Below, piece after piece: positions 2,173 through 56,452 of a stretch of DNA of 64,000 bases. The notes beneath the pieces are model-generated. The model was not told where the DNA came from. It worked only from the letters and a program-made list of their open reading frames with translations, and did not search any database. The stretch lies in contig NBIV01000159.1 in NCBI GenBank assembly GCA_003194525.1, positions 1 through 64,000 of the forward strand. The letters run 5' to 3'. The translations under genes were made by a program, and so were the position numbers. The stretch is from Gracilariopsis chorda. Lineage: Eukaryota > Rhodophyta > Florideophyceae > Gracilariales > Gracilariaceae. The stretch's first letter is position 1. Each line of letters begins with the position of its first letter.

Positions 2173-3157
2173 TCCGCCCTTGTCCAATGATATTCTTGGC
2201 ATTGGCCATGGCGCTCAAGGAATCATCTGCTGCTTATTGCCACTTGCCACGGCGCACAAGGAACCGCTTCCTGCTTACATCCCACTAGCTGGCTCAAGTG
2301 GGTTCCTCTAAAAGATTGCCGCCACGATTCCCAACTAGGAGCTCGCGTAGCTCCGAATTGCCTGGGTCGATGATGTTGAAAACCACGGGAACAAAACGAT
2401 GAATCGTATCCTATAGGAAGCGCGCACCAATAGACCAGACTTGTTTCGAAATTGACCTGTTGTCGTTTGAGTTTTGGTGTGAATACCGATATAACGCGGA
2501 AGAGAAAGGGCACTCGTAGACGCTAGAGGAGCAAAAGATGGACAATATTGATTACTGTAGATCTGTATCTGAAAAAAAGGGCTCTAGAACGACGCCACTG
2601 GTGGAGGAGGGGAACCTATGCGGGCCCTTGTATGAGTTGGACTCTGGACGGAAGTGAATGAGGGGCCACCAGCGCTCTCCATGTCCGCTAAGTTAAGGCC
2701 AAAGCGGTTATCAAGGTCCATTTAGACACGCTTGGATAACAACTTGGAGTTCCAGTATGCTCTGCAATGCGTCATTGTCCTCCTTGTTACGCTGAACCAG
2801 CGAGTTTGATCGTGAGGTCTGGCGAGCCCATGACTGGGTGGCGCGAAGAGCCTTAAGTATACCGGGGTTTCAAGAATACCAGCGGACGTGCATACATTCT
2901 TCAGTTCATCAACATCCATTGTAACGGCTTCAGAAATGACGGGCATAGAACACGGAGGAAGAAGCAAAGGGGTGGAAAACGACAGTGACGTAGGATGCTG
3001 CAAGACCGATGGACCAATAGTTAACTCTGGGGGCTTTACCAAGTCTGAATCACGAGAGGGCGCCAAAGACGACACAACCGATGAGACCCGTCCAGAAACC
3101 ACTGCCCGCTCCCGGACAGGACGACCAAGACAGTCTTCGTAAAATCCATGGCCTGTT
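2173..3157. other. No gene recognised
   Basis: Several open frames overlap on both strands (for example 2722-3102 minus and 2888-3142 plus). None has a motif, a compelling start or continuity with its neighbours. I see no structural RNA or clear repeat. Confidence 0.4.
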
Positions 3158-4620
3158 TTAATGTCCAGGTACGGACTGACGTCGTTCCTTCACGGGGACA
3201 GCCAGTAATGGTTTGGCTTGGTAAACGTTCTCATCGTCATGGCGCAGAGGATATTTTGGAAACGGGGGAAAGACGCCAGTGTCATAATCGTACCAAAGAT
3301 AACCGGAGGATTTCACCCAAGTCGATCTGAAGGACGTAATCCAGTAGAGCCTTAGCCTCTTCAACCCCGTAATTCGTCTTTTGGGCAATGTTCTGCACGC
3401 TCAACTCACGGATGAGCGGAGTTAAATGCCGTTCCAGAAGCACGAGGCGACCGTCCGGACTGGGGAGAAACAGTGCACTCAAGATACGATACTTGGCCTC
3501 TCGGACGTGATCTTCGACCCCGTATTGGGTGATATCTAGAAAGGCCATGAGATAGAGTACGGTCCGTTCAGCGACGAGCATCTGCCAGGACAACCAAGAG
3601 AGACGCTGAGTGACGTCAGGCTGGAGCTTATAGGTTTGGTAAGCCACGAATAACGAAATGGGGTACGTAAGGAGATTGGAAACATGCCAGATTGCAGCCT
3701 CAGGGATAGCGCAGAGCGCTGGAAGTGGGAGATATGGTGAATAACTACGGGAACGAGACATTTCATGGAACTTCACTTGGTGCCAACAGAAGAAATACTT
3801 AAGATTGGTTTGAATACGGACATCGGGCTCGATCATACCATTCCAATAGGTCCGGTTTGATAACCAATGCAATTCATCCCATGGGTGTTTGAAGCAGACC
3901 AGTCCGAGGACCTTATGACGAGGACGAGAAAAGGGGGCCTTGAAGTGATCATGCATGGGGTGCACGTCTTCGAGAAGCATGTTCAGTCTCCATTGGTAAA
4001 CAGCCTCCTCGCCCAACCAAACGAACCACGTGTCCGGCGGGACCAAAGCGCGGCAACATTTTATCGAACGGGCATCAGCAAAATGGTGAAGCTAGCGCTT
4101 GTACCATGACTTCTCTTCGGAACTTTCCTTCTCACCTACATAGTTGAGAATTGCAGCGAGCAAAAGGGCATCCAAGTGCTGGTCATTGTGTCGCACAAAC
4201 TCAGCGACCGAGCGGGTCAGGTGAGTATTTCTGACGACCATAGGATTCCAACCCAAGGCGTGCTCCTACTCGTCACCCCGAAGGGCATAAGCGCTGCTGG
4301 GGACCAGAGCCCTGTTCGTCCCTTCTATAGTGATGGCGGCTTGAGTGATAGGCCCAAAGCCGTAATAGTCTAGCAGGTAGCAATGGCAGCCCTTACATGC
4401 TCCCGAAGAAATGGCATAGACTTAATCGATGAGCATGCAGAGTGGACTCGGCGCCAGGGAAACCCGACGGTCAGGAAAATAAAAGGCCAAAGGAATGTAA
4501 CTAGATCCACAAAAGGGGCAGGAACGCTAGATGCACAGAGGCGGTACGTGAAAAGAGGGACGGCCAGAGAGCGAGGTAACCTGGACGGAAGTAAAGGGGA
4601 CCGCGCACGTGGTGACCGAA
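3158..4620 (-). pseudogene. Unrecognised degraded protein gene
   Basis: A long minus-strand frame can be followed from about 4620 down to 3282. In-frame nonsense codons lie at 4527-4529, 4422-4424, 4266-4268 and 4092-4094, all in one frame. The downstream part is open for 254 codons (4046-3282). A frameshift near 3320 moves the coding-like reading to the frame ending at 3158. The reading contains a possible zinc-binding CPFCG, then CKGCHCY about 45 residues later, followed by mixed hydrophobic and aromatic sequence. I do not recognise the family. Coding character is inferred from frame continuity and residue composition; four stops plus a frameshift make it a pseudogene. Whether it was a host subtelomeric gene or part of a mobile element is open. 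Confidence 0.45.
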
Positions 4621-6579
4621 ATGCAGGAGCACGGAAAGCGCCCTGAAGTTGATGTTCTCCGGGAAATGAGGCATCCTTGTCAGCGACCAGTCGCACGGCA
4701 GTGGCCACGTGCAACTAAGTTAAACAGCAACCAAATGGACGCAAACGGTACCGCCGCCATATCCATTACGGAAGGGGTGATCAACCCTCTTCAACCAGGG
4801 AAGGGTGGCTTACTCGACGATGAGGAGACAAGAAGAGCATTCCCATCGAGTTGAAAGGACGCCAGCCAAAGAAGTGGTAATTGTCAGTGGTAGAAAACTG
4901 CCAACGGGACGTCGGTTCTTACGAAGGGAAGTCTGTAAAAGAACGACCATTGGGGAGGTGAAGTCGTGTGGAGGAACCACGGGTCTGTGATGACAGAGGT
5001 ACGATCATTTCTGATATATATATTTTACGGGCCCAAACGGGGGAACGATGGCAGAGATACCAGGAGATATTGCCAATTTCAAGTACTCTAGCCTCCTGTT
5101 TTATTACGTAGCTAGCTTATTTCATTTATTTGGATAGTTTTCGGAGGTGCGATCGTCTCGTCGACCATAGATGTTGACTCGAGAGCCCCTGACCTCCGAA
5201 GAGTAAATGCGAGCACTATTGCAATCTTCTTGCAGCCGTAGGCAGCTAGCAGAAAGTTGAAGGGTTTCTGCTAGCTGCGCTTCAAGCCAGCGCTACCTTT
5301 CTCCCGACCTGTAGTGACTTGAAATAGTGCCCGTCCATTGCGCCTCGCTTCCAATCCGTGCTCGCGTCACTAGTAAATCCAGTGGACTCTCCCGGCAGTG
5401 GCGGGCCTTCTGGCGCTAGTAATCTTCGGTAGACTACTACCCTGGTTGGTCACATGACGTGGTATTCTTCTACAAACAATACTATTCAAAGCGAATATTT
5501 GCGGACACATCTCGAATTATAGTATTTGAGAACTCTTCGTTTGGGAATGCGGAAACCCTCCAACAGAGAGTACTGACTATCAACCAGTATCTGAACGGTC
5601 AACTCCAACCTGGATACTTTATCTATACCGCGATTCTGCAGAGCCAACGGACAACTGACCACAGGTTTGGGAGCAGTGGACAAGTCAGTTTAGGAAACCG
5701 ACATAACGCACAATTCATTTCGACAAACCAGAACAATATTATTATCAAAAACTAATTTTGACGCAAACGATGAACGTAGTTGAAGAGAACCATTTGATAC
5801 CAAGGAGGGTGTTAAATTATGGCATTGACGACTCTGCAACAAGTTAGACCTTTCAAAGTAAGAAACAGCTGGTAGTTGTGAAATCGATGAACTCAATTTG
5901 AGAAGTTGCGGACAACAAGAGAAATCTTTCCCAGCTTCTCCATGCACAGAGAACAAAACCAATAACCTTACAATTTTGACATTCCAAAACCTATGGGAAC
6001 ATGATAAAACAGGTTCTAGGTCAACGAAAATCTTCGGCTTCGATTACAGTTAACCAATTTTAGATAGTCAGAGCACTTGTTGAACAAAGTCGTCGGCCCA
6101 GAAATTTAATCAAGGTGTTCAAATTCTTGCTATCCAGGGAAGTTCATTCAACGAAAAAGACCTTCGTATACGTATGATATGGATGTAAATCTCCAATATC
6201 GTCGAAAGTACAATGGAGGGGGTTGGAAGGCTCAGTACGCTTTCACGGCGAAGCAAAGCGTCTACAGGTGAACCCAGCTGTGGTGCAACCAATTTTGTGT
6301 CTATTACTAGCTGAGTAGCTCGTTTGGATAACGTGCTGGAGAGAGCTCGGCGAGGGCTAAATCTCAAAGATGGAAGTTGGATAACAGAATGTGTGCCAGC
6401 ACAAAACCACTAGGGGCGCAAGATAGCCAGGCGGGCTAACCGTAAACAATTGGTAGCATTGGTGATACGCGCAAAAGGGCTAGTACAGCCTGAAGATTGG
6501 TTAAACGGGACAATCGACTGCAAAAATCGGATGTTAGCACAGTTGGTAGCACAGTTAGTCAGGACGTGCTTAGCTTTAC
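4621..6579. other. No gene recognised
   Basis: Short overlapping open frames on both strands lack recognisable motifs. The one clear structure is a hairpin at 5242-5278, listed separately. Confidence 0.4.
5242..5278. repeat. Perfect 14-bp inverted repeat (hairpin)
   Basis: Positions 5242-5255 and 5265-5278 are perfect reverse complements around a 9-nt loop. The stem contains GCTAGC. No following T-run or gene end explains it as a terminator. Function unknown. Confidence 0.6.
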
Positions 6580-6584
6580 AATGC

Positions 6585-7263
6585 TGTAAGGAACAGAGAG
6601 GCGGTGGTTGAATTGGTTGGAAGTCGGTGGTGATGATCCGAGTTAGAAGTTCGGAACATCAGTCGGAGTTTATATAGAATTTCTAGTCTAGTTCTATCAG
6701 TGCCACTAGTCGATGAGAATTCGTCCGAGTTAAACGGTATGTTGCTTGGTGTTCGAGCTGGTCTCCGTAGGCAACTGATTAACCGGGTTCAGTGCCAGTT
6801 CTAGTCATTTGATGACTTGGCAAATTCCATTAATGCTGATGACTTGGCAAATTCCATTAATGCTGATGACTTGTCATCAGACAAAGTCTTGATGATCTGG
6901 CATGGACCAAGGGTGCCAGTGAAGACTTGGCACGACTCCCTTGGGAATATTCCATGACTGTTCGATCCGCGCTGTACCGTGTGAAGTGTCTGTCAACGTT
7001 GTGAGTAGTAGGCAACGTGTAATTTAGAACCAATATGTCCACATTGTCAACGAAGACTTCTTTGACATGAACATGTTGTCATGTCATATTGACAGGGTGT
7101 CACGAATATGTCAACTCGGCTTTGAGGCCAGTTTGGCATGGCCAATGGGTAACCGATTTCTTCAGCTGATCGAGTAAAATACAACTAGCTGGTTTGTGCG
7201 CGTTACAACGGATGCTAGAGCCAACTTTATTAAAAGGAAGGTAAATAATAACTAAGTCTAACA
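6585..7263 (-). repeat. gypsy-1 3' LTR
   Basis: 679 bp, with terminal TGTAAG/CTAACA. It matches the other LTR along its length but is 27 bp longer. The difference is a tandem duplication of a 27-bp unit at 6810-6836 and 6837-6863, which arose after or during insertion. Confidence 0.9.
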
Positions 7264-7275
7264 TTACTTTCCCCT
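7264..7275 (-). other. gypsy-1 polypurine tract
   Basis: On the minus strand the bases next to the 3' LTR read AGGGGAAAGTAA. This is the expected plus-strand DNA primer for reverse transcription. Confidence 0.65.
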
Positions 7276-7312
7276 AACAGGAGACTCGACCCAACTCGTG
7301 ACGCAGATTTTC

Positions 7313-8338
7313 TTAGACTCGCACAAACCCAGATTCTGGAGGAACAGGGAACAGGTCGCGCTGAGGTTTAGATTCCAGGGTGAATGGGACTTGACCTTCA
7401 TCCTCAAAGCGGTTGAGGATTTCACCAGTTTTCTCCGTAAAACTTAGTTCACTCGTGAGGGGTTTATAGCGCGCAAACATATAGTTGAAGATATGCCTTA
7501 CGAACGTATCGTCCAAAATCGTAAGAATTACACCATCATAGTTGAAAAAGAGTCATTGCAGCAGTATTTCATTCTCATCGATGTAGAAGGGTCCACGTTG
7601 TTGGGCAAATGAGAACGAGATATGACAGGCTTCCCAGAAAAAATGTAGCCTGATTGCTTCAATGCCAGTGATTTCACCCATCCAGTGGTATAACGATCTT
7701 CCGCCGAGGTTGATATTGTTGTAAAACTCTCTTGCGTTTTCGACTTTGGTGTTTTGACTCATCTTCAACGTTTTTTGAGACGGGGACGCTTCGTTCCTTC
7801 TCGATATGAGTCCGTTCGTCTTCTTATACTGCCGGAGAAGTGATTTGCAGTTCGTGAGGTCTCTTTCTTTCATCTAAGTGTTCTCATGACTTTGGTATCT
7901 AAGCCATTTGACAAGAGATTCAAATCGTCTGGCCCGTTTTCTGTAGTTGACTATACATTCTACTTCACATTTTTCTGTCGCATCCTTCAATGTTACTGGG
8001 GTGGGATGATCTGGCTCGTGACGAATCGATTTGTCTTCTCGGTAAGGCCTGAGAACGCTAGCGTGGAACACATCATGAATTTTTGACTTCAGTGTATGAC
8101 TCACGTCTAGACGAAATGTTACTGGACCAAGCTTTTCTGTGATCCTGAACGGTTCACAGTATCGGATTTGTAGTTGGGGCTTCTTTTCCATGTGGGCCCC
8201 ATTGAGGGATTTTAGGGACAACATGACTTTCTGCCTCACTTGGAATGTGCAGGGGGACCGATTCTTATCGGTATAGGACTTGGAGTAACGGTTCTGTTCT
8301 TCAATGTGTGTTTTTGCTTCAACGATTGCTTGCTTCAT
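7313..8338 (-). pseudogene. gypsy-1 integrase C-terminus and chromodomain
   Basis: The frame from 8338 carries the end of integrase (KIHDVFHASVLRPY, the usual 'hvVFHVSLLKPY' block). It then runs into a chromodomain, EVECIVNYRKR...LVKWLRYQSHENT. A TAG replaces the tryptophan of the TWEP motif. The same frame continues as MKERDLTNCKSLLRQYKK, which is the rest of the chromodomain, then about 180 more codons with one further stop. That extension (with YHWMGEITG and HFFWEACHISFS) matches nothing I know and is longer than the usual tail. The chromodomain normally reads histone methylation to steer integration. Confidence 0.75.
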
Positions 8339-9178
8339 GCTTGCTATGAACTTCAGAGCTGTATCATTTTCTGAAAGAATGGTATCGAGTGGTAGTACTT
8401 TTGGGTGGTCCCTGTACGTTAAGAAGAAGGGCGTACACTTTGTGGTAGAATTCTCGAGTTGTATGCGACTTCGAATTCTATGAGGTGTTCATCCCAATTA
8501 CATTGCTTAAGTTTGAAGTATGCCCTAATCATTTCTTCAATTTTTTGTTCATTACCTCGGTTTGACCATCTTTCTGGGGGTGGTATGCTGTTGATTTCAT
8601 TATCTTAATACCCACGAGGCGGAATAGTTCTTTGCATAAGTTTCTCATAAAAATCTTGTCCGCGTCGGAGACTATTACTTCGGAGAGGCCTTGATGTCTG
8701 TATACGTGCTTAGAATATAGTTCTTCAGTATGACCTGCAGTGACATCTCATGTTGTTGGAATAATTCTGATCAACTTGGACAGGCAGTCTACTACAACGT
8801 ACAGTGCACTAATCCCATGTTTCGTTTTGGGAAGCGGTGTGATGAAGTGCATTGTAATTGGCGCCGACTTTTTTTTCGGAAGAGGTAGTGGTTTTAGTTC
8901 ACCCTGGGGTTTCTTGGGTCCTGATTTCGTTTCTTGACACTTCAGACATGAGTCGACGTATTCCTAAATCGTTTGGCGTAACGATTTCCAGTAGTATAGT
9001 CTCCGAATCTTTTCATATGTTTTCTTAAATGTTAGGTGAGCTGATATAGGTTGATCGTGGTAGTCTTGTAGTATCTTTAGTATTACTTCTCCTTTTGGTA
9101 CGCAGCTATACAAAAATCCATTTTGTTTGTGGACTGGGCCCTGCGGAGATTTTTATAGGTTTTTGGATTCCTTTTCGT
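8339..9178 (-). pseudogene. gypsy-1 integrase core, badly decayed
   Basis: No long open frame survives, but pieces are readable in order: CLKCQETKSG (end of the zinc region), SAPITMHFITPLP (where the first catalytic Asp of M-D-F-I is now His), VSDADKIF (second Asp) and YHPQKDGQTEVMN (catalytic Glu). Stops lie between them. The enzyme would have inserted the cDNA into the chromosome; loss of the first acidic residue alone would inactivate it. Confidence 0.65.
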
Positions 9179-15142: not shown

Positions 15143-16951
15143 CTAATGACACCACTCTAAAAAGTCTACAGCTTCTTGTAGAACAGGGTGTTTGATGCAT
15201 GTTGGCATTGGATGGAAATCATGCGCATTTCGGGGCGTCTCGTCTTCATTATGCAGCACTAACACATCATCAGATGTTCTCACTCGCGAAAGTCCAACAC
15301 AGACCTGATTCGGCGAAAAAGCGTTTGTTCGAAACTCAATTATCATGTTCTTCATGGTTTTTTATTGCGCTATATGCACAGTTGCTGCAAATGTCAATCT
15401 GATGGGAAACTGTCGACGTTTGATTTTCACATCTGCAAACTTAAAACTAAAGTCAATGCGGTGCAGTAAAAAGATTTGCTGAGTTTCCCCATGTTCATCA
15501 ATGCCCAAAAGTCAAATCACTCTGCGAGATATGCTGGTAATGATAAAAATCTTTCCATTCAGCAAGTGCAGATGAAGTACATTTCGAATCAACGTAACAG
15601 GAACACCCAACTTCAGTTTCAAATAGTGGTGCGGGACTCCAGTTGGAGCGTAATTATACGTCAGTTCAGGTCCAATGATACTATTTGTGTGAAAGTTTTC
15701 ACCGGTTGGCCCTCGGTTGGGAACGATCTTCGTTGTAGACTTCAATTCAAACATCCTTCCTTGGAAATACTACAATGCGTTATGGTTATGTTCCTACACT
15801 AAATGATTTGTTGGCGCAACAATCAATCGGTGGAGCTTGACATCTTTTCTCTTCCGTTTTGTAAACCATTTCCAAACCAACTTGTATGCTTCGTGTACAT
15901 CTGACGTAGACTTGAGGGAAAGCCTTGCAGATGCTGGAAACGTCCCACGACCAAGGCTGAGCAAACCTTTGGCAAAAACTGGATCATTTTGTTGACGAAA
16001 CTGTTCTGTAAGCCAAAAAACTTTGAATCTTTTGTCCCAAAGATCGCAAGAGTACCATATAAGCTCCTGTAGGAGAATCACTGGAATAACACGAATTGTT
16101 TCATCCCTTTCGGATACTGTTCTCGTTCTTTGAACCACTGGACGCAGTTGCATATAGTCGCCTGCCATAACTATGACCATGCATCCAAAGTCTTTCGTAG
16201 AGTTTCTTAAGTCCTTCAAGACGGTGTTCAAAATCTCGAAGACCATTTTCGGTCATATTGAAGCTTCATCAATTACCAGCAAAAGCGTCTACTGTATTAG
16301 TTCTGCTCTCTGTGATCGTGGTCCGTACTTGAAAAGTGTTTGACGCTCTCTACTCTGCGAATCGTTCTTGTCACCAACTCCCAATCCAAGCAAACTATGC
16401 AAAGTTCTTCCACCTTCATATAGAGCAGCAGCAATACCTTTTGTGGCTGTCATCTGCACCAATAGGCAATCGTGCTCAACAATACCTCTCAGCAAAGATA
16501 AGAGATAGATCTTCCCTGTCCCCGCTCTTCCGTGTAAGAAGAAAACGCTTCCGTGTGTGTTGTGTCTTTCAGACTCCCCCATTCTCTCTCTGCACTGTAT
16601 TTTTTTCATTATTCTGTCAGTAACCTCCTTCTGGCCTTCTTTCAGATCATCGTATCGCTCTTTTAACCTTCGCCTGGACCTCGAAGAAGAGCTGCGACAT
16701 ACTTCAGCTTGTTACTCTGCTGATTGCAGTTCGCTCTCTCTGAGAGGAAGATGTGATACAGTATGATAAAAGAAGGGATCATTTCTAATAAGCTGACCAC
16801 CATGTCTGTCCAAAATCTTAATGATTCTTCGAAGTAGTTCTTCTCTTCTTTGTGCTCTGTTTCCCTCGGTTATATCTGCAGTTAGAGCTCGTTCGTGCTT
16901 TTCAATCACAGTTTTAGGATTTATCCCTTGTTGAAAGGAAGTGACGACCAA
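15143..16951 (-). pseudogene. Helitron Pif1-family helicase
   Basis: Motif I is readable as GRAGTGKIYLL (about 16,510): the Walker A Thr/Ser after the Lys is Ile. Motif Ia is TATKGIAAALYEGGRTLHSLLGLG. The Walker B block VIDEAS (about 16,265) is followed at once by a TGA. VIVMAGDYMQLRPVV is the 'GDFrQilPVi' block. The C-terminal block NQVCVGLSRVRTSDDVLVL is motif VI. Several frameshifts separate the parts. The helicase would unwind the donor strand. Confidence 0.85.
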
Positions 16952-45447: not shown

Positions 45448-46623
45448 TTGGAACTATCAAGTGCACCACAAACGGTAAGCACTTGTTACCACACGTCTCA
45501 TATGATAGGCTTTAGAACGATGAAACTACCGCTCGGGAAAGCAATACTGTTATCTGCGAAGCATACGCCATCCTTCGAATCTAACTTCATATCCCTCTCC
45601 GTGCTTTCGAGGCAAGTAGATATGCAGTTTTCCAACAGCAAAGAAACTTAGATGTTCATCATCAAAGATTGTTCAAATGGCGAAGAACTTTACCATTCCA
45701 CACCACCAGACGAACTTCCCCTTTTGCTAAGTCCCATATGTCCACCTCGTGCACAAACGACGTCACACTCTCAGGTTAACACTCCCAAGGCCTGGCATGA
45801 GCAACTTGCACACCTCGGTCGTGACAGGCTGTTATCTTGCATCGACCAATGCGATGGAGTACCCACAGTCTCCACGAGAGAAAAAACCATGTTTACTGTA
45901 CCCCATGCATCGACGCTGGTACCAAACGTGCTCCACTTACACAATCTGACTCAGTCGCAGGACAACCATTGGAACTAACACACACGGACTTCAGCGGCCC
46001 CATAACATCGAGCTCCCTACAAGGCCCTGATTATATGCATGTACTTGTCGATGGTAACACAAGTGTAAGCTTTGTTTACTTTATCGAGAATAAAACTCAG
46101 TTTTTTGAGTCCGGACGTTGGTGCAAGGCTCGCCCAGAAAATTAACTCTCTCTGAACCGGATATACCTCGTTCGCCTTGGCGGTGTGGGGGTGGGGGGAG
46201 GGGTGAGAATAGGTCCGACGACATCGTCACCTACGCCGTGGAGAACGGAATGATACTCGAATTCATTCGACCGTATGCGCATCAATCAACTGGTGTCGCG
46301 GAGGAAATCATCCAGGACTTGTGGAAGATTGCAAGAACTTTCCTGTGCGCTTTAAACTGGCCTCACCAGCTATGGGACGATGCCATATCGCATGCCAACT
46401 ACCTAAGAAACCGGTTATCAAATCACCGAGTATGAATGAAGTTCCCCTTTACACTATGGTTCCGGCGAAAGCCTGACTTTACCAATATTCTAAAGTTTGG
46501 ACAACAGGGTTATGCGTACATATATATCTGTCCGAAACGTTATGTTTTTCCCGGTTTCTTGGCTGGCCAATCAATCACACCCGACGGCAACGGTACCACT
46601 GCTGACACTTACCGAACGCATGG
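45448..46623 (+). pseudogene. Ty1/copia remnant (copia-3), truncated by copia-1
   Basis: Readable pieces in copia order: ISLSVLSRQVDMQFSNSKET (end of protease), a TAG, MFIIKDCSNGEELYHS, the pre-integrase block AWHEQLAHLGRDRLLSCI, then in another frame CTPCIDAG and LELTHTDFSGPI (integrase first Asp), and later AYAHQSTGVAEEIIQDLWKIA (Glu region) and NYLRNRLSNHRV. At least three frame changes occur. It differs clearly from copia-1 and copia-2 in protein, so it is another lineage. It stops where copia-1 was inserted (46619-46623 is the target duplication). Confidence 0.75.
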
Positions 46624-46655
46624 TGATGAAGAACACGCAATCGTGATGCCATTAC

Positions 46656-47462
46656 TGTGGTGCAATGCCCCAAAGGGGAAAAACACCGAAAGACGTCCGG
46701 GATCTTCCTCTCACGAGGTGAACCCAGTTGGGTAGAGCCCTCCCAGAGGTGTCACGGCGAAGCCGGTTTGTAAGACCAGGGACACCTGTCGCGACTCGCG
46801 CAGGGAGGTGAAGGCCAAGAATCGGTATCCGCGTGAGCGGGGTGTGATCCTCAGTAGAGGTATGTTTCCACGTAAGTGGGGGTGTGTGAGCGGAAGCGCA
46901 CACGAGGGCCGCGGATAGCGGGAGGTGCTACCCTAAAAAGGGGAAGAAGGAAGGACGAAGTGGGTCGCGAGAGCGACGAGCAGATACGGCAATGCCGGTG
47001 GACAGGACTCCCTATACAGGGCGAAACACCAATGCAATTGGAACAATTATACTCCCAGTGATGGGTCCCTTTAGATGTGCAAGGGGGTTAGATGTCCCGT
47101 GGTTCACGGCGTTTCCCTCCAAGGAGGAGTAGAGTACGCGCGCAAGCGGCAACAACTAGAGCCAATTCCCCAGGTTGGGGTCCCTTGTTGGGGAAGGTTT
47201 ACTGGTGCGACGGCAGTGCGCCGTCGCACTAAGTACTAGCTTCCCAGAAATGGGTGTGAAAATAATAAATAATATTAACTAAAATACTCCACATTTCGTG
47301 GCAACATCCACTACTCTGGCCAACCGCCAATTGACCCAAAACCGTGTCCCACGTGTCCATATCCACCATAGTGGGGCGTAATTCATATACACACTACACA
47401 ACCGATAATATCAGGAAAGCGTTCAAGTACCCAGAATCCCTGCCTGAGGGCGTTGCACTTCA
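46656..47462 (-). repeat. gypsy-2 3' LTR
   Basis: 807 bp, TG...CA. It is nearly identical to the 5' LTR except for a block at about 47030-47160 where many substitutions and small indels cluster. It contains a 10-bp-stem hairpin, GTGCGACGGC (47205-47214) with its complement at 47220-47229. Confidence 0.95.
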
Positions 47463-47475
47463 TATCCCCCCCTAA
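47463..47475 (-). other. gypsy-2 polypurine tract
   Basis: On the minus strand TTAGGGGGGGATA directly precedes the 3' LTR. Confidence 0.7.
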
Positions 47476-47780
47476 GACGGGAAAACGACCGCGGACGCGG
47501 AGGGTTCCCAGACGAAAATGGGTGATAAAAGCGCGTGCGCCGTCTCCGGTTCTCCGGTAATTTCCTCTGCATCAGAGTCACCAGCCCCTGATACCCCAGC
47601 CGTTGTTTCCTAGTTCTTCTTTCCTGGCATAGCCAGCAGTGTAGTATAGTGTTGTGGGGAGCTAGCTGCTCCCTTGAATAAACTTTCCCGTTTAGAACGG
47701 TGCTTCTCGGTTGAGTTCCCCGTCTTCGACGGACTTTGCCTTGTTATCCTTTCCTTTCGCTCTCCGCTCACGCGGCAACG

Positions 47781-50700
47781 TTACCCAACTTGGGCATTAA
47801 CCAGCGTGGCTGGGGCTGCGGTTCCCGTTTGACGGTGGTATCGCAGGACCTGCGACCGCGGGAGGTGTTCAATTGGCTCCCACGTATCCCCACTGGGGTC
47901 GTACCCGTACCAGCGGACGCGGTATTGTAGAATACCATCCTGGTCCCAGGTGTGTCCGACAAGTCGGTCTACTACGAACTCTCGTTCGTAGACCTGCCGG
48001 CCGTGCCGGGTGGTGGTTGTACTTCCCTGCGGGGGCTGCCCGCTGTGCGGTATAATGTCCCTTAGCAGGGTGTTCGGCGATAACTCCGACGTTGCCGTGC
48101 GCTGTCCTAGTGGCCGCTGCTCATGCGGGAAAATATCCGTCAAGAGGGTGTGTGGTGTCACGGTTTTCCCCGGCAAGTCATTCCCCACTGGGGTGTAGGT
48201 GTTCCCGTCTTCACGGTAGGCCGGGCGAACCGCCAGTCGGCGGGGGACTTGGGCTCCGCCTTCGCGGTTGAGCTCACGAACCGCGAGTTTGCGGGAAGAT
48301 GACCACTCCTGCGGGATTGGCATTTCCACAATCCCCTGGGGGGTCCCGTGCGACACGGTGATTGGTTGGCAAACCGCCTCCCTGCCAGGCGCACGAGCGC
48401 TCTGCACCATACGTTCCGGCGACGCCGTGGTGTCCCCGGCTACTGACGGGTTGCCTGGGGCTAACTCTGGTACACCGGTATTTTGGTCAAAATTCCCCTT
48501 TGGGGGGTTCTGGGCAGGTGCCGATGACACCCTTTTCAGGGGAATTGCCGCTGAGCGCAGTGCACCATCTCCGTGAGGAGGAGCAGCGTCCGGTACGACC
48601 GGTTTCGAGCGTGCGATGGCGCGCGTTATTCCCGAGTTCCTCGGTTCTTCGCCGCAGCGATGCGGGGGTTGGCGCAAATTATTCCCCGTAGCGGGGGCTT
48701 TGATTCCGTCAACGACGGGAGGCGTTTCCGGTGCTTGCGAGCCAGGGCTTAAAGCTTCGACTGCAGCTTGGCCGCCTTTTTCCCCAAGAGGGGTGTGGGT
48801 ATTCCCCTGTGAGGCCGGCGTATCTGGGCGCCCCTTCTCCGCAGGGCGCGGGTCTGATCGACCTGATTGAACCGCTTCCGCGGGGACTTCCGCCAACGGC
48901 GGCTTCGAGGCATCGGGCGATTGCCTTTCCGCTGCTGCGGTATTGGAGTGAGGCTTCTCGTTTTCCCGTGACAAACGGTGTATTTGCCGCCTTTGCGGGG
49001 CCTGCGCGTCTGGTTCCTGTTGCACAGCACTGCCCGGGAACAGGGGATTAGTGTCGCGTGACATACTACGTGCTCCACGGTCAGTGTTCCGTATGTTACG
49101 GTGTGTTTCCCGTTGCGACGGTGATATCGTTCCTCGAAAACGAGTGTTCTCCTCCCCCTCCTTAGACGGAGCGGCGGGATAAGGGATAACATTCCCCGCC
49201 TGGCGGGTATATATGCGCGCCAGTGGGGCAGACGTGGTAGGGGCGGGCGCTGAGGGGCCCGAATTACCCGGCTGAGCCGGTGAGTCCGACAGAGTCGGTA
49301 GGTCTGAGAGTCCCTGGCTGGGGTGTGGTAGTACCGTAGGTCTAGTACTCCCGGATTGTTCCAGTGTAGTGGAGTCCGTAGAAACGGGGTTGCCTGGATC
49401 CAGGACTACCTCTGACGAGGGAGGAGGGGCAAGGACAACACGATCACGGGGAATCCGTTCGTGCGTGTCCCCCATCTCTACCACGACAGTGTCGGTGTTA
49501 ACAGAGATCACCTTGAAGGGTCCATCCGCCACAGGCGAGAGTTTGTGACGCTTCTCCCGTTCCGGGTTGTAGTATTCCTTCCTGATGAAGACGTAGTTAT
49601 TTGCCCGAATCGGAGACGGTTTTCCTCGCACGCGAGCGTCAAAATCCCGCTTGCAAGCGGCTTGGGCCCGTGCCATAGACTTCCGCGCAGCGGGGAACAG
49701 CTTGGAAAGCCATTGCTTCCATTGCTGCCGGTAGATACCCACAGATGGGAAATTGTCCAAGGTAGCTTGGGGTTCCAGCGCCACAGGAGGGGGTGTTCTA
49801 GATAGAACTAACTCGAATGGCGAAACTCCGGTAGTCAGGTGTACCTGCGTATTGTACGCGTAGGTTACCGCATCAGCGTAGAGATCCCAATTCGTTGGGT
49901 GGTCAGCGACGTAGGAACGTAACGCCGCGAGTAACGTCCGGTTAAACCGTTCAACTTGCCCATTACACTGGGGGTGGTAGGTAGTCGTGAACAAGTTCTT
50001 GACATCCAGGATGCGACAAACATCCTGGAAGAACTTGCTCACGAACTGCTTCCCGTTGTCAGAGAGCACCTCTACAGGGGGACCGTAGACAAAAATCCAG
50101 TGTGTCACCAGAGCCTGGGCCACCGTGAGAGCGGTTATCCTCCGAAGAGGGACAGTCCGTACCAGCTTAGAAAAGCGGTCGGTAATGACAAGTAGAAACT
50201 TGTTTCCACGTTTCGTGGTGAGTAATGGTCCGAGAATATCGATCGCAATAAACTCGAGCGGCGCCCTTGCGGGGAATAGTTTCATCTTCTTCGCATTTTT
50301 GCGGAGTTTGACGCGATTCTTCGCGCATTCGCTACAAAACCGCACAGTTGCGTAGCAATCCACCGCCATTGCGGGCCAATAGAAATCCCTTCGCAGGGTT
50401 AGGTAGAGTTTCCTCCCACCTGGGTGACCTCCAATGGGGGCGTAGTGTGATAGATGTAACACCCGCGATTGCAGGGAATGTGGTACCACAATCTGTGGGC
50501 GGGCTTCGACCTTTCTTACGAGGTAGCCTTTGTCGTTTACCCCGAAAGGGAGATCTTCACCACCGTTGATACGGGCACGAATTCTCGTACAGAATGGGTC
50601 GCCGAATTGTTCTCGGATCATTTCTTCCGGTGATACCGGTACAAAGTTTCCCGGTAACGGGTTCTCAGATTTATCTCGCGATGCGAGTAGATCGTCAAAA

Positions 50701-53342
50701 TCAGCATCCTCGTCCCAGTTTTCTGGCCTAGCCTCGACGGCATATTCCGGATCATCAGGGTCTATAGCCATGAAACATGGGACTTCATCATCCTCCGTTG
50801 GGAGTGCTTCCCCACTTTTGGGTAACCGCGACAGAGCGTCGGCTTGGGTGTTCTGCGCGCCCTTTTTATAAATGACTTGAAAGTCATATTCCGCGAGGCG
50901 GAGTCTCCAGCGCATGACGCGTCCCGACGGGTCGGAGATATTCATCAACCACCTCAATGAGGAATGATCCGTGTACACGGTGAAGTGAATTCCCATAAGG
51001 TAGGGGCGCAGAGTGGTCATCGCCCATACGACGGCGAGGCACTCTTTCTCCGATACGGAGTAGTTCCGCTCATGAACATTGAGCGAACGTGACCAATAAC
51101 CATTTGGATGTCGTTCCCCCTCGGGGGTGGTTTGAAAAAGAGCACACCCGACTTGGTAGTCGCTCGAGTCCGTATCTACGGAGTATGGCAACCCAAGTTT
51201 TGGGAGATGTAGGATTGGTGCTGATGTGACAGCCTCCTTCAAGGAGTTGAAGGCTTCCGATTGCTCGGGCGTAAATATTCCCAGTTTTGGGGGGTTCCCC
51301 TTTCGCAACAACGCGTTCAGCGGCGCTGCAGTATCCGAAAAGTTCGGGATAAACCGTCGATAGACGTTGACCAGCCCCAGAAAGGAGCGCAGTTCCGTTT
51401 GAGTACGGGGTTCTTTCGCCTCAACGAGGGATTTGACTCGAGCTTTCTCGATCGCTAACCGTCCAGGACGGATAATGTGACCCAGATACTTCACAGTATC
51501 TGTGAAAAACTCGCATTTCCTCAACTTGAGGGTAATTCCCGCATCGCGGAGTACGGTGAGCACGTCTCGGACGTGAGTGAGATGGTCGTCCAACGAGTTG
51601 GAGAAGATGATGATATCATCAAGGTAGACCAGACAACTCCGCCACTTAAAGCGGTTGAGTAGAATATCTACTGCACGCTGAAAGATGGCGGGGGCGTTGG
51701 TTAACCCAAATGGCATCCGCTTGAAGCGGTACGTTCCTGCATGGCAGGTGAATGCGGTTTTGTCGCGATCCTCCTGTCTGACAGGTACTTGCCAATATCC
51801 CCAATTGGCATCAAGGGCCGTGAACACGGTGGCGTCTCCAAGGGAGTCAATGCACCCGTCCATACGAGGGATAGGGTACGTGTCCCTAACGGTCACGGCA
51901 TTGAGCCGGCGGTAGTCGACACAGAACCTCCAGGTTCTGTCGGCCTTTAAAGCCAGTACAACTGGGGATGCCCAGGGTGATTGAACGGGCTCAATCACAC
52001 CCGCGCGGAGCATCTTGTCCACGTGGGACTGCTCCTCTTCCCGAGCTTTCGGACCTGCCCTGTAAGGGGGTTGTGCAACCGGTCGCGCACCGGGGATTAA
52101 ATCGATCCGGTGTTCCGTTGCATCAATCTCGCCAAGCGAGCCATCCCACATTGTGGTGAATTCCCGTAACATAGTACGGAGTTTGTCGCGGTGCGACTTT
52201 GGCACGTGGCTGAAGTCCAGCGCTTCAAGTGCTTTTTCCGGATCAATCCGGTCATTGCTCGATGGAGCATTGTCCTGTGGAACAGGTGTGGTTCGCAATT
52301 CCGAGTTACTCGGTATGTTCGGCGCTGAAGTAGCGGTTTCCTCCCCCTCCTTAGACTTGAAGTCTTCGGACGGCGGGGCAAACTCCTCAGAAGAGGTGGT
52401 AACTCCGAGTACATCGGCGGCTGTCATCTTTGTTGGCAGCATTCCCATAGGATGGGGGGTTACACTCCCAATTACTTGGTGTTTGACCAGATACTGGGGG
52501 TGTTTGCCAAGGTTGGCAACCAATATCCGGAAAGGAACATCCGGGGAAATAGAGACAATTCCATTAGCCAGCGCCAGCTGGGATTTCTCGTACAACGAGG
52601 CGAGGGGTTGTATAACCCGAAGACCGTGTTGACGGGAATTTACCTGCACCCAGACTTGGGACTCAGCCGGTATAGAAACCGAGGCAGCGACGCGGAGCTT
52701 GGTGGACTCGCAGGACGCGGGCGGCGGTTCCTGCGCAGCAGGGAGCGGAACTTGTTTCCGAGAGGACCGCTTTAGCGGGCGGCAAACAATCGGAACCGAC
52801 GATCCGTCGTCAAGTTCTACACGCCTGAGGCGGGGCCTGATTGCGTCGACAAATCTGTCGCAGTAATCACATCCCAGTATAACTGGTGCTGCCAATGAAC
52901 GGCAAACGATGAAGTCCAACTTCACCACAGAGGTACCAAGTCTAACGACGAGGTCGACTGTGCCCACCGTTTGTAACGGGTTGTTATTCGCATCCGAAAT
53001 GTCGGGGACCGCGTCAGAGCGGATACGAGACCGCAAAAGCGGGGGTAACAATGATTCCACAACGAAGTTGGGGCCTGCACCTGTATCCAGGACGGTGAGA
53101 AACCTCACCATGAACTGGGGATCAAGGCCAAGGTCGGCATAGACCTTGTAATTGCGCTTGGCCATGACCAAGACTCTACCGGGAATCCGGGGATTTTTAC
53201 TCCGTATCCACGGGCGACGCAACACACCGAGGTGCGCAGAGTCCGCGTCAGCGGTGTCTTTCCTCGAGAGGACTTTCACCGGGGAGCGAGGCGAGGACGC
53301 CTCGGGCGCCAACAGCCTCGTTCTTGAGGACGCCTCTCCCAA
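47781..53342 (-). CDS. gypsy-2 Pol polyprotein
   Basis: About 1,853 codons. The reported first codon is TTG (53340-53342), not ATG. The frame stays open upstream into gag in the -1 phase, so Pol is probably made by frameshifting from gag. Domains: retropepsin with VLDTGAG (Asp86); RT with YRRLNAVT, FTALDANWGYWQV, MPFGLTNAP and YLDD (573-576); RNase H with VDTDSSDYQVGCAL and YTDHSSLRWLM; integrase HHCC finger (HLSHYAPIGGHPG...CSEC) and DDE residues Asp1035, Asp1095 and Glu1131 with 35 residues between the last two; a long Pro/Ser-rich spacer of about 400 residues; and a chromodomain from about 1785 (YEREFVVDRL...YRVRWYGYDPSGDTWEP). All catalytic residues I can check are present. Confidence 0.95.
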   Translation of the reverse strand: MGEASSRTRLLAPEASSPRSPVKVLSRKDTADADSAHLGVLRRPWIRSKNPRIPGRVLVMAKRNYKVYADLGLDPQFMVRFLTVLDTGAGPNFVVESLLPPLLRSRIRSDAVPDISDANNNPLQTVGTVDLVVRLGTSVVKLDFIVCRSLAAPVILGCDYCDRFVDAIRPRLRRVELDDGSSVPIVCRPLKRSSRKQVPLPAAQEPPPASCESTKLRVAASVSIPAESQVWVQVNSRQHGLRVIQPLASLYEKSQLALANGIVSISPDVPFRILVANLGKHPQYLVKHQVIGSVTPHPMGMLPTKMTAADVLGVTTSSEEFAPPSEDFKSKEGEETATSAPNIPSNSELRTTPVPQDNAPSSNDRIDPEKALEALDFSHVPKSHRDKLRTMLREFTTMWDGSLGEIDATEHRIDLIPGARPVAQPPYRAGPKAREEEQSHVDKMLRAGVIEPVQSPWASPVVLALKADRTWRFCVDYRRLNAVTVRDTYPIPRMDGCIDSLGDATVFTALDANWGYWQVPVRQEDRDKTAFTCHAGTYRFKRMPFGLTNAPAIFQRAVDILLNRFKWRSCLVYLDDIIIFSNSLDDHLTHVRDVLTVLRDAGITLKLRKCEFFTDTVKYLGHIIRPGRLAIEKARVKSLVEAKEPRTQTELRSFLGLVNVYRRFIPNFSDTAAPLNALLRKGNPPKLGIFTPEQSEAFNSLKEAVTSAPILHLPKLGLPYSVDTDSSDYQVGCALFQTTPEGERHPNGYWSRSLNVHERNYSVSEKECLAVVWAMTTLRPYLMGIHFTVYTDHSSLRWLMNISDPSGRVMRWRLRLAEYDFQVIYKKGAQNTQADALSRLPKSGEALPTEDDEVPCFMAIDPDDPEYAVEARPENWDEDADFDDLLASRDKSENPLPGNFVPVSPEEMIREQFGDPFCTRIRARINGGEDLPFGVNDKGYLVRKVEARPQIVVPHSLQSRVLHLSHYAPIGGHPGGRKLYLTLRRDFYWPAMAVDCYATVRFCSECAKNRVKLRKNAKKMKLFPARAPLEFIAIDILGPLLTTKRGNKFLLVITDRFSKLVRTVPLRRITALTVAQALVTHWIFVYGPPVEVLSDNGKQFVSKFFQDVCRILDVKNLFTTTYHPQCNGQVERFNRTLLAALRSYVADHPTNWDLYADAVTYAYNTQVHLTTGVSPFELVLSRTPPPVALEPQATLDNFPSVGIYRQQWKQWLSKLFPAARKSMARAQAACKRDFDARVRGKPSPIRANNYVFIRKEYYNPEREKRHKLSPVADGPFKVISVNTDTVVVEMGDTHERIPRDRVVLAPPPSSEVVLDPGNPVSTDSTTLEQSGSTRPTVLPHPSQGLSDLPTLSDSPAQPGNSGPSAPAPTTSAPLARIYTRQAGNVIPYPAAPSKEGEENTRFRGTISPSQRETHRNIRNTDRGARSMSRDTNPLFPGSAVQQEPDAQAPQRRQIHRLSRENEKPHSNTAAAERQSPDASKPPLAEVPAEAVQSGRSDPRPAEKGRPDTPASQGNTHTPLGEKGGQAAVEALSPGSQAPETPPVVDGIKAPATGNNLRQPPHRCGEEPRNSGITRAIARSKPVVPDAAPPHGDGALRSAAIPLKRVSSAPAQNPPKGNFDQNTGVPELAPGNPSVAGDTTASPERMVQSARAPGREAVCQPITVSHGTPQGIVEMPIPQEWSSSRKLAVRELNREGGAQVPRRLAVRPAYREDGNTYTPVGNDLPGKTVTPHTLLTDIFPHEQRPLGQRTATSELSPNTLLRDIIPHSGQPPQGSTTTTRHGRQVYEREFVVDRLVGHTWDQDGILQYRVRWYGYDPSGDTWEPIEHLPRSQVLRYHRQTGTAAPATLVNAQVG

Positions 53343-53359
53343 AGGGGAGACTCCCTCAG

Positions 53360-55534
53360 TTAGTTTTCCGCCTTCGGCGGTGGGTTGGTTTCCTCGACAA
53401 CGAGTGCTTCATCCCGTTGACGGGGGTTTCTATCCGCATAAGCGGGGGTTGCAACGGATGGTTGCGTGATCTCCCGAATCGGGGTGTATGAAGCTTGCCG
53501 CGCACGCGGGGTCTGTGGTAGGGCGTGGGAAAAGTCCGTTTTAGCACGGAGGTAGGAAGCCGTCGGGACGGAACGTTTCTCCTCTGGAGTGAGGGCCTCA
53601 TAATTTGCCACCACCTTGGCCATATCCTTCAGTGAACAAATACACTGAGGAGAGGTATGGCCATGGGCATAGCACAGGTGGCAAATGAGAGCCAGCACCG
53701 CGACACGCGGATTATTATTCCGAGTATCGGAGAAGCGAACCGCAGGGCGGGTGTCAGTCCATCCAGGCCGTTGATAACGGGATTGACCGTTTGAAAACGG
53801 GAGTCGTTGGGGTTGAACCCGACTGTTACCACCGTATAGAACGGGATCTTCTGTTCCCGTATCATGGGTCATCTCCGTCGTTGACGGTAACTCACTGGTG
53901 GGTATCGACACACAATCCCCCTGCGCTAAATGCACGGTATCAAATCCCTGTCCAGGGTTCCCATCCGCGGTGAGCGGGAGAGAGGAAGCTTCGCTTTCCA
54001 GCAACAACGCCTTGGCGGATTTAGACCGATTGTTCGGAGTTCTTGCACGAAGTGCATCCCCTTCCGCTCGAGCGTGTTGGACTAGCTCGAGGTAGGTGAT
54101 CCTTCGCTTGTCCTCCCGATAACGGGTAACTAAACTCCGGATTGCCGGGTCAAGACCATCAATGAACATGTTACTGCGCTCCCCAGCGGGGTATACGTTA
54201 CCACATCTGTGGAAAGCCTTGTTAAGGCGCACCGAGTAATCGGTCTCGGTCTCTCCAGCACGCTGGCGTGTATCTCGCAAAGCGAGGATAGCCTGCTGAA
54301 TAGCGGTGTTGGTGGCGTAGGAGCGCAGAAGATACTGCACAGCCTCCGGCCAGCAAGTAACTCCTCCCTCGGAGGCGCGAGAAGATCCTCTGACAGAGGT
54401 GTATTGGTCCTCCGCCACTCCCCGTAAGAAATACGGTAAAGCCAAATAGGCTTGTCCCTCATTCATACCGAGGATATCGGCCTCCGCTACAAAGCGGGAT
54501 AGGAAATCCAGTACTAGGACTGGGTCCTCTCCAGTAAAATACTGGTTGCGGAGCGAGAGCTGCATTCGCTTAATGCATTCTCGCACCTTTCCCGTACCAC
54601 GGGGCGTACGTCCAAGTGACGAATCTTCAAGCCGGTAGTACCGGTATGATAAAAGCTTGCGGTAATCCGGGTTTGTCGGTTTCAATTCCCGGAGACCGGG
54701 GTGTCTTCTCCCCTTCTGGCGGGTTCGGATGAAACTTTCAGTGGCCGATGACCGCTTCGAGCGGGAGGAGTAGCCTCGCTTCTCGTCCTCCGAGTCGGAG
54801 TCCGAGGAGCTCGAGCTAACCGAATGGTTTCGGGATGAGTCCGACGATGTCGAAGAATCGGAGTCCGAATATTTTCGGTGGTGTTTCCGTCGGTGACGGC
54901 GTTTCTTCTTCCCAGCAAGCTGGTCGTTGTGCGATGCCTCGTTTACCGGATCACCCGGGGATGGTTTGTCCATGAGGACGAACTGCTCCAGCGTCTCCAG
55001 GCAGGCACCAATACGATCAAATCGGACTTCAACTCCTTCGATAAAGGCGGCGGGTTGTCCCAAACTCTCCAACACGGAGTTGACGTCCGACCGTAAAATA
55101 CGGAGTTCCTCGGCGACCTCCTTTACGGGGGTTGCCGAGACCACCTCTTGGAGGGATTTTAGTTCCCCTACAAGGGTGTCATGGGCGGTCCACAGAGCGC
55201 GGACCTGGGATTCCAGGGAAGTCCCCTGGGGGGTGTTATCGCCCGTTCCACGGGGGCTTGAAGCCGCGACAGCGGGAGCAGGCCAGGGTGCCTGGGGCAC
55301 TGCGGCAACAGCCGGAGTCGATGCTGCATTCCCCTGCGGGGGTGATAACGAGGGCAACAGGAGGTTCCGGGGTTCCCGGTCGGGGGTATCATTCCGCGAT
55401 GAAGCGGCGCCAGCACGGCTGGAACTTGTCCGTATAGGGATACGGGGTACGAACCGAACTTCGCAAGTGTCCGCGTTGTCGCCGGAGCGACTACGCGTAA
55501 GCACTGGCTCCGCGTCGGAGGGATTTCTCGACAT
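53360..55534 (-). CDS. gypsy-2 Gag
   Basis: 724 codons from an ATG (55532-55534). A disordered N-terminus is followed by a possible coiled coil, a Ser/Asp-rich basic segment (KKKRRHRRKHHRKYSDSDSS), the capsid-like region (KRMQLSLRNQYFTGEDPVLV...FLSRFVAEADI) typical of chromovirus gag, and a single nucleocapsid knuckle, CHLCYAHGHTSPQC (C-X2-C-X4-H-X4-C), near the C-terminus. It ends KAEN-TAA. The pol frame overlaps this end in the -1 phase. Gag would build the particle around element RNA. Confidence 0.92.
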   Translation of the reverse strand: MSRNPSDAEPVLTRSRSGDNADTCEVRFVPRIPIRTSSSRAGAASSRNDTPDREPRNLLLPSLSPPQGNAASTPAVAAVPQAPWPAPAVAASSPRGTGDNTPQGTSLESQVRALWTAHDTLVGELKSLQEVVSATPVKEVAEELRILRSDVNSVLESLGQPAAFIEGVEVRFDRIGACLETLEQFVLMDKPSPGDPVNEASHNDQLAGKKKRRHRRKHHRKYSDSDSSTSSDSSRNHSVSSSSSDSDSEDEKRGYSSRSKRSSATESFIRTRQKGRRHPGLRELKPTNPDYRKLLSYRYYRLEDSSLGRTPRGTGKVRECIKRMQLSLRNQYFTGEDPVLVLDFLSRFVAEADILGMNEGQAYLALPYFLRGVAEDQYTSVRGSSRASEGGVTCWPEAVQYLLRSYATNTAIQQAILALRDTRQRAGETETDYSVRLNKAFHRCGNVYPAGERSNMFIDGLDPAIRSLVTRYREDKRRITYLELVQHARAEGDALRARTPNNRSKSAKALLLESEASSLPLTADGNPGQGFDTVHLAQGDCVSIPTSELPSTTEMTHDTGTEDPVLYGGNSRVQPQRLPFSNGQSRYQRPGWTDTRPAVRFSDTRNNNPRVAVLALICHLCYAHGHTSPQCICSLKDMAKVVANYEALTPEEKRSVPTASYLRAKTDFSHALPQTPRARQASYTPIREITQPSVATPAYADRNPRQRDEALVVEETNPPPKAEN

Positions 55535-55623
55535 GAGAAAATACCGTTACGACGGGAAACGATCACGGAACTTCCGGTGAATGAAAACAAACCTCGTAAG
55601 AGGGAAAACAAAAACCGATTCTA

Positions 55624-55636
55624 GGTCGGGAGACCA
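55624..55636 (-). other. gypsy-2 primer-binding site
   Basis: Three bases inside the 5' LTR the minus strand reads TGGTCTCCCGACC. TGG pairs with a tRNA CCA end, and the rest would define an acceptor stem unlike the TGGTAGCAT used by the other three elements. The site is itself a small stem-loop (GGTC...GACC). Confidence 0.6.
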
Positions 55637-55639
55637 CTT

Positions 55640-56447
55640 TGTGGTGCAATGCCCCAAAGGGGAAAAACACCGAAAGACGTCCGGGATCTTCCTCTCACGA
55701 GGTGAACCCAGTTGGGTAGAGCCCTCCCAGAGGTGTCACGGCGAAGCCGGTTTGTAAGACCAGGGACACCTGTCGCGACTCGCGCAGGGAGGTGAAGGCG
55801 AAGAATCGGTATCCGCGTGAGCGGGGTGTGATCCTCAGTAGAGGTATGTTTCCACGTAAGTGGGGGTGTGTGAGCGGAAGCGCACACGAGGGCCGCGGAT
55901 AGCGGGAGGTGCTACCCTAAAAAGGGGAAAGAGGAAGGACGAAGTGGGTCGCGAGAGCGACGAGTAGATACGGCAATGCCGGTGGACAGGACTCCCTATA
56001 CAGGGCGAAACACCAATATGACTGGAACAATTAGTACCCCCAATGATGGGTCTCCTTTAGATGTGCAAGGGGGGTGAACTTCCGTACACTACGGTGCTTC
56101 CCTCCAAGGAGGAGTTGAGAACACGCGGAGGCGGTAAAGCTCAGAGCCAATTCCCCAGGTTGGGGTCCCTTCTTGGGGAAGGTTTACTGGTGCGACGGCA
56201 GTGCGCCGTCGCACTAAGTACTAGCTTCCCAGAAATGGGTGTGAAAATAATAAATAATATTAACTAAAATACTCCACATTTCGTGGCAACATCCACTACT
56301 CTGGCCAACCGCCAATTGACCCAAAACCGTGTCCCACGTGTCCATATCCACCATAGTGGGGCGTAATTCATATACACACTACACAACCGATAATACCGGG
56401 AAAGCGTTCAAGTACCCAGAATCCCTGCCTGAGGGCGTTGCACTTCA
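55640..56447 (-). repeat. gypsy-2 5' LTR
   Basis: 808 bp, TG...CA. Compared with the 3' LTR most of it is identical. The diverged block is at about 56015-56150, where stems CCCA/TGGG (56039-56050) and CCGT/ACGG (56082-56094) are kept but their loops differ from the partner LTR. Confidence 0.95.
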
Positions 56448-56452
56448 ATTAC

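Follow-up and report, generated by a model that had tools for sequence, protein, structure and literature searches.

Why should a retrotransposon carry a short, perfect hairpin about once every 35 nucleotides (nt) over its full length, genes included? The question is raised by gypsy-2, an element of the red alga Gracilariopsis chorda that lies in the window we analysed, a stretch of 64,000 nt (GenBank assembly GCA_003194525.1, contig NBIV01000159.1, positions 1 to 64,000). The order of its pol domains, its long terminal repeat (LTR) ends and its target duplication all fit a chromodomain-bearing Ty3/gypsy LTR retrotransposon (Table 1). An earlier note, made from the letters alone, had described gypsy-2 as packed with stem-loops that three other elements of the window (copia-1, copia-2 and gypsy-1) do not show, and had offered selection for a structured RNA, fold-back mutation during reverse transcription, or a role against small RNAs as possible causes. 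All 12 stems that it listed are present at their positions, with some dimensions to be corrected: the stem at 51922-51939 has 8 base pairs (bp) and a loop of 2 rather than 7 bp, those at 51717-51729 and 51773-51785 are 6-bp stems with a loop of 1, and the loop at 51791-51809 measures 7 nt.

For the counts, a stem was defined as a perfect pairing of at least 4 bp (or at least 5 bp) with a loop of 2 to 6 nt, and the gag and pol frames of gypsy-2 (7,815 nt, the 49-nt overlap being counted twice) were compared with 300 shuffles in which synonymous codons had been permuted. The count was 365 for stems of at least 4 bp, where 157.9 +/- 11.6 are expected (shuffle maximum 190, z 17.9), and 153 for those of at least 5 bp, where the expectation is 42.3 +/- 5.8 (shuffle maximum 58, z 19.1), so that codon-preserving shuffles do not reach the density of the real element. 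In copia-1, copia-2 and gypsy-1, stems in the open frames are at the level of their shuffles (z -1.6 to 1.2 across six tests), which bears out the contrast drawn in the earlier note; neither of the outcomes that the note had named as refuting its observation was obtained. Stems are likewise in excess over 300 dinucleotide shuffles in the non-coding 5' LTR (Table 1). Codon or composition bias as the cause of the excess is ruled out by the two kinds of shuffle together. A scan of the whole window in 2-kb bins, with 20 dinucleotide shuffles per bin, confined the strong excess to 46-56 kb: all five bins from 46001 to 56000 hold 60-76 stems of at least 4 bp where 27-31 are expected (z 6.4-11.4), and none of the remaining 27 bins exceeds a z of 2.7. 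That value belongs to bin 1-2000, outside gypsy-2, which has a mild excess of its own (35 versus 23.8 at 4 bp; 6 versus 1.6 at 6 bp).

The hairpins belong to a narrow class. Broken down by exact stem and loop, the excess sits in stems of 4-6 bp with short loops, best at 3-4 nt, and is mostly gone at loops of 7 nt or more; the hairpin span is therefore mainly 11-14 nt. The combination of 5 bp and loop 3 occurs 21 times versus 2.2 expected in gag and 33 versus 4.4 in pol, and that of 4 bp and loop 4 occurs 51 versus 17.4 times in pol and 11 versus 5.9 in gag. The enriched classes hold 270 stems versus 70.9 expected, and some of the hairpins that we place are accordingly due to chance. On the sense strand, the hairpins have a common motif, [A/C]CC...GGA(A). 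In the excess that is left after subtracting shuffles, the 5' neighbour of the stem is A or C in 85%, the first two paired bases are C in 93% and then C in 79%, and the 3' neighbour is A in 46%, as is the next base. The claim of the earlier note that each stem has its own sequence thus holds for the inner pairs, which vary, but not for the outer pairs and flanks. The motif depends largely on pairing: CC-N8-GG is found 58 times versus 8.1 expected with two or more further pairs, and 52 times versus 48.3 with none. With other spacers (N 5-11), CC...GG lacking inner pairs is at 1.2 to 1.35 times expectation, so that some weak enrichment without pairing persists. The flanks are asymmetric between strands in pol (p 4e-9, 103 hairpins), gag (p 2e-6, 48) and the LTR (p 0.01, 17), the pol and gag values being partly due to coding composition; the motif is still distinct when compared with stems from codon shuffles and from dinucleotide shuffles, in which strand composition is kept. 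The hairpins fall in all three codon phases.

Placement along the element follows a rule as well. Among 233 hairpins in the coding frames, and relative to random placement at equal density, linkers of 0-4 nt are avoided (18 versus 47.6), linkers of 5-12 nt are preferred (91 versus 56.6) and those of 35-45 nt are also scarce (10 versus 18.3), while stems in shuffled sequence have only a mild dip at 0-2 nt. Avoidance of short linkers together with preference for 5-12 nt fits a footprint larger than the hairpin itself. This nearest-neighbour rule is the sole spacing regularity that we keep; a long-range period of about 21 nt seen in pair distances was explained by permutation of the gaps (nine tests, P 0.03-0.87, the value of 0.03 being at period 29). 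Expressed per 100 nt, the excess amounts to 2.4 stems in the LTR, 3.6 in the leader and gag N-terminus, 2.4 in the gag core, 2.3 in the gag C-terminus, 2.9 in the protease region, 2.5 in both reverse transcriptase (RT) and RNase H, 2.2 in integrase and 2.0 in the pol tail (errors 0.45-0.76 from LTR to pol tail), with 3.2 +/- 1.4 at the chromodomain end and 1.3 +/- 0.8 in the 3' untranslated stretch. Density is therefore similar whether a region is constrained or tolerant, with the leader and the poorly conserved gag N-terminus at the top.

To see how far the trait extends, we turned to the alga's own genome (91.3 Mb), in which seven places match phycobilisome linker polypeptides, as fits a red alga. 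A search with the RT protein gave 3,778 first-look candidates, and the best 150, the window's own among them, all have 96-100% identity. From a search with Pfam RT, for which the best 150 of 3,380 candidates were scored, 30 loci include relatives with 74-82% identity to gypsy-2 RT. The loci from both searches are stem-rich without exception (38/38, z 7.1 to 26.1), and four further loci of the clade are stem-rich too (z 4.3 to 6.6). By the same measure, no excess was found in any of 38 loci of other families, namely 8 gypsy-1 loci including that of the window and 30 copia loci (z -1.8 to 1.2), or in any of three remote gypsy loci with 33-38% amino acid identity (z -0.6 to -1.0). The hairpins mark one clade among the families sampled, and this sample does not bear out the idea of a genome-wide trait, or of one common to every retroelement. 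Among fourteen representatives we distinguish four lineages, A (with the window copy), B, C and D; nucleotide identity to A is 74% for D, 67-69% for B (63% in one odd copy) and 67-68% for C. No relatives were found in the viral_contigs and genome_contigs collections, which hold no eukaryote genomes as such and are silent on other red algae. At five loci (L002, L004, L005, L007 and L008), near-identity to the window copy drops to about 80% part-way through pol; such a switch in the last third of 3.7-kb loci would fit mosaics of two sub-lineages. We also searched for non-autonomous passengers, scoring the best 40 of 1,472 first-look LTR candidates and examining the flanks of nine. Eight have no match to the window beyond the LTR, and in the ninth (L086) the LTR directly adjoins sequence matching window positions 50966-50367, an internally deleted copy.

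Each relative has 1.9-3.0 times the stems of its own permuted version, and most stems are confined to one lineage, so that what is maintained seems to be the density and not a fixed architecture. Twelve comparisons between lineages were made, with one representative per lineage and a codon-permutation null. A and D have 15 stems in common positions, versus 5.6 +/- 2.0 with A as reference or 4.2 +/- 1.8 in the other direction, and the other 10 comparisons have 6-9 versus 1.6-3.3; sharing is above the permutation mean in all 12, with a null maximum equal to or above the observed count in five. Two hairpins, at 51717-51729 and 51048-51060, are kept across all four lineages with changes of their pairs. 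Any two of the lineages A, B and C differ in their outer pairs or flanks (20 uncorrected tests), as expected of a binder that co-evolves with them. The earlier note had proposed looking for compensatory changes in family members, and some exist: 2-5 stems per comparison contain a compensatory pair versus null means of 0.5-1.3. When both sides of a stem pair are altered, 116/226 are still Watson-Crick, versus 259/692 in slid controls (rows not independent). One-sided changes lead to G-U (156) and A-C (167) alike.

Private changes in close copies provide a view of recent mutation. In lineage C (23 copies), 143 private events caused 28 stem losses and 13 gains, where about 31 and 8 are expected at random; the figures are 14 and 5 (random 13 and 4) for 59 events in lineage B (6 copies), and 31 and 5 (random 26 and 8) for 102 events in lineage A (8 copies). 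Beyond a small and uncertain surplus of gains in C, recent mutation has no stem-building tendency. Since private changes disrupt stems about as often as random ones would, upkeep would be due to selection between replicating copies; and the spacing rule, the specified flanks and the density in constrained regions together favour selection acting via a bound protein.

We therefore tentatively favour, while stopping short of calling it probable, a selected array of protein-recognised sites, perhaps packaging sites for Gag. The sequence of the whole clade would have been shaped, in coding parts largely by codon choice, into repeats of a unit with 4-5 Watson-Crick pairs, a loop of 3-4 nt, lineage-typical outer pairs and flanks, and linkers mostly of at least 5 nt. 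Selection would retain the hairpins as sense-strand binding sites of a protein; that protein may be the element's own Gag, through its nucleocapsid part, in which case numerous sites for packaging or assembly would be scattered over the genomic RNA, with each lineage favouring its own RNA. The Gag proteins of lineages A, B and C have a conserved core, one CCHC-type knuckle (identified by eye) and an Arg/Ser-rich stretch, and that of the window has no relative among solved structures. A bolder version, which we regard as doubtful, has the genomic RNA as a distributed recognition polymer, in which a lineage-specific hairpin "address", repeated about 200 times or more and read by the lineage's own Gag, spreads the instructions for packaging and assembly over the full coding sequence and keeps co-resident lineages apart.

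Several results weigh against a protein-read RNA array. In the class with 5 bp and loop 3, pooled over lineages, 127 perfect stems are present versus 19.4 expected; at interior pairs 2-4, G-U is found 24 times versus 26.6, and neither A-C (30 versus 29.1) nor other mismatches (121 versus 110) are in excess, an unusual picture for RNA stems under selection. Mismatches of every type are raised alike at both terminal pairs, a pattern that 4-bp hairpins would produce. The missing G-U enrichment is the chief result against ordinary RNA-structure selection, and in its plain, G-U-tolerant form such selection is not borne out; a steep stability threshold on stems this small could be an explanation. 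The compensatory counts lie mostly within the null range (above the null maximum in one of 12 comparisons and equal to it in three), the A1-A2 tail has no compensatory stem in either direction, and between the motifs of A and D just a single position shows a clear difference. None of the three Gag proteins matches a Pfam family above cut-off (weak SR-25 matches, E 0.033 and 0.0035). Finally, according to the available part of PMC11381356, a yeast Ty3 mini-element with only the 5' untranslated region (UTR), parts of gag and the 3' UTR is mobilised if proteins are supplied, which argues against a general need for internal signals; the same source describes the Ty3 packaging sequences as imprecisely defined, with both UTRs and POL being of importance.

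The strict Watson-Crick pairing, without an excess of near-perfect stems, is what would be expected if fold-back (template-switch) synthesis during reverse transcription or replication copied one arm from the other, with the motif marking switch sites and selection on hairpins unneeded. Dynamic, lineage-specific positions, the shortness of the patches and a regional excess that peaks in the leader and the little-conserved N-terminus of gag also suit this mechanism, and a comparable all-or-none quality led the authors of PMC6649704, in the part of that paper available, to propose repeat conversion. We nevertheless consider it unlikely. Private changes are mostly single-base, only 3/31 multi-base events add stems whereas 7/31 lose them, all 49 events found in more than one copy of lineage C are single-base, and no loop inversions were seen by eye among the listed cross-lineage stems; the RT core has the same excess as LTR and pol tail, and a minimum spacing with specified flanks would not be expected. 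Most private changes are probably post-insertion, which makes the test weak, and the fold-back idea of the earlier note is thus weakened rather than refuted. Absence of G-U (or G-T) enrichment would equally follow if the hairpins worked in single-stranded or extruded DNA, such as minus-strand cDNA, for reverse transcription, integration or chromatin, since G-T is of no help there. Loops of 3-4 nt and a higher mean local probability of hairpin formation with DNA parameters (0.59 sense, 0.57 antisense) than with RNA parameters (0.45 and 0.43) point the same way. The strand asymmetry of the flanks counts against double-stranded DNA, though not against single-stranded cDNA, and we know of no DNA step that would require hundreds of sites; a DNA-level role appears quite unlikely.

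General RNA folding, selected to evade host silencing or antisense pairing with no dedicated binder, would account for the folding energies. In 150-nt windows (30 per strand for gypsy-2, 12 for copia-1), the mean z relative to shuffles is -1.77 +/- 0.27 for sense and -1.11 +/- 0.26 for antisense gypsy-2 RNA, compared with -0.17 and -0.48 for copia-1. The fixed span, specified flanks, spacing rule, lineage-specific motifs and lack of G-U use make this explanation improbable. Of the three causes offered originally, selection for structured RNA fits best, but not as generic structure, given the span of 11-14 nt, the motif, the flanks, the spacing and the missing G-U. A host RNA- or DNA-binding protein could read the hairpins instead of Gag, for export, translation, stability or escape from repression, and the motif, spacing and strand evidence would suit any dedicated binder equally well. 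Lineages within one genome differ in outer pairs and flanks, which suits a binder evolving with the lineage better, and we hold a host reader to be just as improbable as silencing evasion.

Table 1. Coordinates of gypsy-2 and its parts in the window.
Feature	Position	Strand	Basis or remark
gypsy-2 element	46656-56447	-	LTR pair, ends and target duplication
3' LTR, 807 bp, hairpin-bearing	46656..47462	-	TG...CA ends
5' LTR, 808 bp	55640..56447	-	35 stems of at least 4 bp versus 13.1 +/- 3.9 in shuffles
ATTAC target duplication, 5 bp	46651-46655 and 56448-56452		Flanks gypsy-2
gag open frame, hairpin-rich	53360..55546	-	Open reading frame; protein core conserved, one CCHC-type knuckle (by eye)
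pol open frame, hairpin-rich	47781..53408	-	Pfam: RT, RNase H, integrase, chromodomain, in that order
Hairpin array	46656..56447	-	267 non-overlapping hairpins placed in sense-strand nt 1-9,000, part of them chance; 154 with CC...GG ends
Hairpin CCGCTTcAAGCGG (window copy)	51717..51729	-	In all four lineages, pairs changed
Hairpin CTCCGtatCGGAG (window copy)	51048..51060	-	In all four lineages, pairs changed

No aspartic protease was matched by Pfam at E <= 0.001 in the pol frame, and curated Rfam families gave no match at gathering score across the whole window. The two LTRs are near-identical and diverge in a single patch (47020-47160 versus 56005-56150), where the hairpins hold their position with different letters (CCGTG-aac-CACGG versus CCGTA-gtg-TACGG on the sense strand); the patch perhaps stems from recombination with another lineage. 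Both LTRs also contain a perfect inverted repeat of 10 bp around a 5-nt loop (47205-47229 and 56190-56214), which exceeds the usual hairpin length. Three bases past the 5' LTR on the sense strand, a stretch starting with TGG (55619-55636) resembles a tRNA primer-binding site, a candidate to which no tRNA was matched. To the left of gypsy-2, 46240-46430 resembles by eye a broken retroelement integrase stretch. Farther away, 15794-16252 is a PIF1-like helicase fragment, which we take to be possibly part of a Helitron.

In gag, RT, RNase H, integrase, chromodomain, TG...CA LTRs and 5-bp duplication, gypsy-2 is like the Ty3/gypsy chromodomain retrotransposons (Metaviridae). RNA viruses with genome-scale ordered RNA structure have a genome-wide folding excess over shuffles, which the folding excess of gypsy-2 resembles; to our knowledge, such structure does not make use of one short hairpin type with a common motif. 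The array also sets gypsy-2 apart from yeast Ty3 RNA, for which the available part of PMC11381356 describes a folded core of about 20% plus local elements and mentions no array of a single hairpin type. RNA viruses provide an established model of dispersed packaging signals with a common motif, and signals of the MS2 type are like the gypsy-2 hairpins in being many stem-loops with a degenerate recognition motif along the genome, as far as the accessible text of PMC6281560 goes. Measured against that account, the gypsy-2 motif differs in occupying the base of the stem and its flanks instead of the apical loop, and the sites are far more numerous and exclusively Watson-Crick. If Gag reads the hairpins, gypsy-2 would take dispersed packaging signals to a natural extreme, in a group whose packaging sequences are poorly defined, and its lineages would offer a built-in comparison of motif versus Gag.

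The coding palindromes of nematomorph mitochondria are similar in being perfect repeats in conserved coding DNA that are dynamic between species, with no excess of imperfect ones; they are long (mean 43 bp among repeats of at least 15 bp), according to the portion of PMC6649704 at hand, whereas the gypsy-2 stems have 4-6 bp, are far denser and follow a motif and a spacing rule. Template-switch (quasipalindrome) mutation, in the available part of PMC8794818, would create perfect hairpins and maintain their perfection, as in gypsy-2. It predicts multi-base stem-making events, of which the gypsy-2 clade has none beyond chance, in a test that is weak as the changes are probably post-insertion. If reverse transcription does write the hairpins, the element would reveal a mutational process that creates perfect hairpins in coding DNA. 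In either case, gypsy-2 illustrates a strong coupling of the codon choice of a mobile element to short local pairing. Open-licence full-text literature, which was partially covered, gave no LTR element with a comparable hairpin array. The superfamily of the element is a known one, and the array is new in its density, its span limit and its lineage-specific motif.

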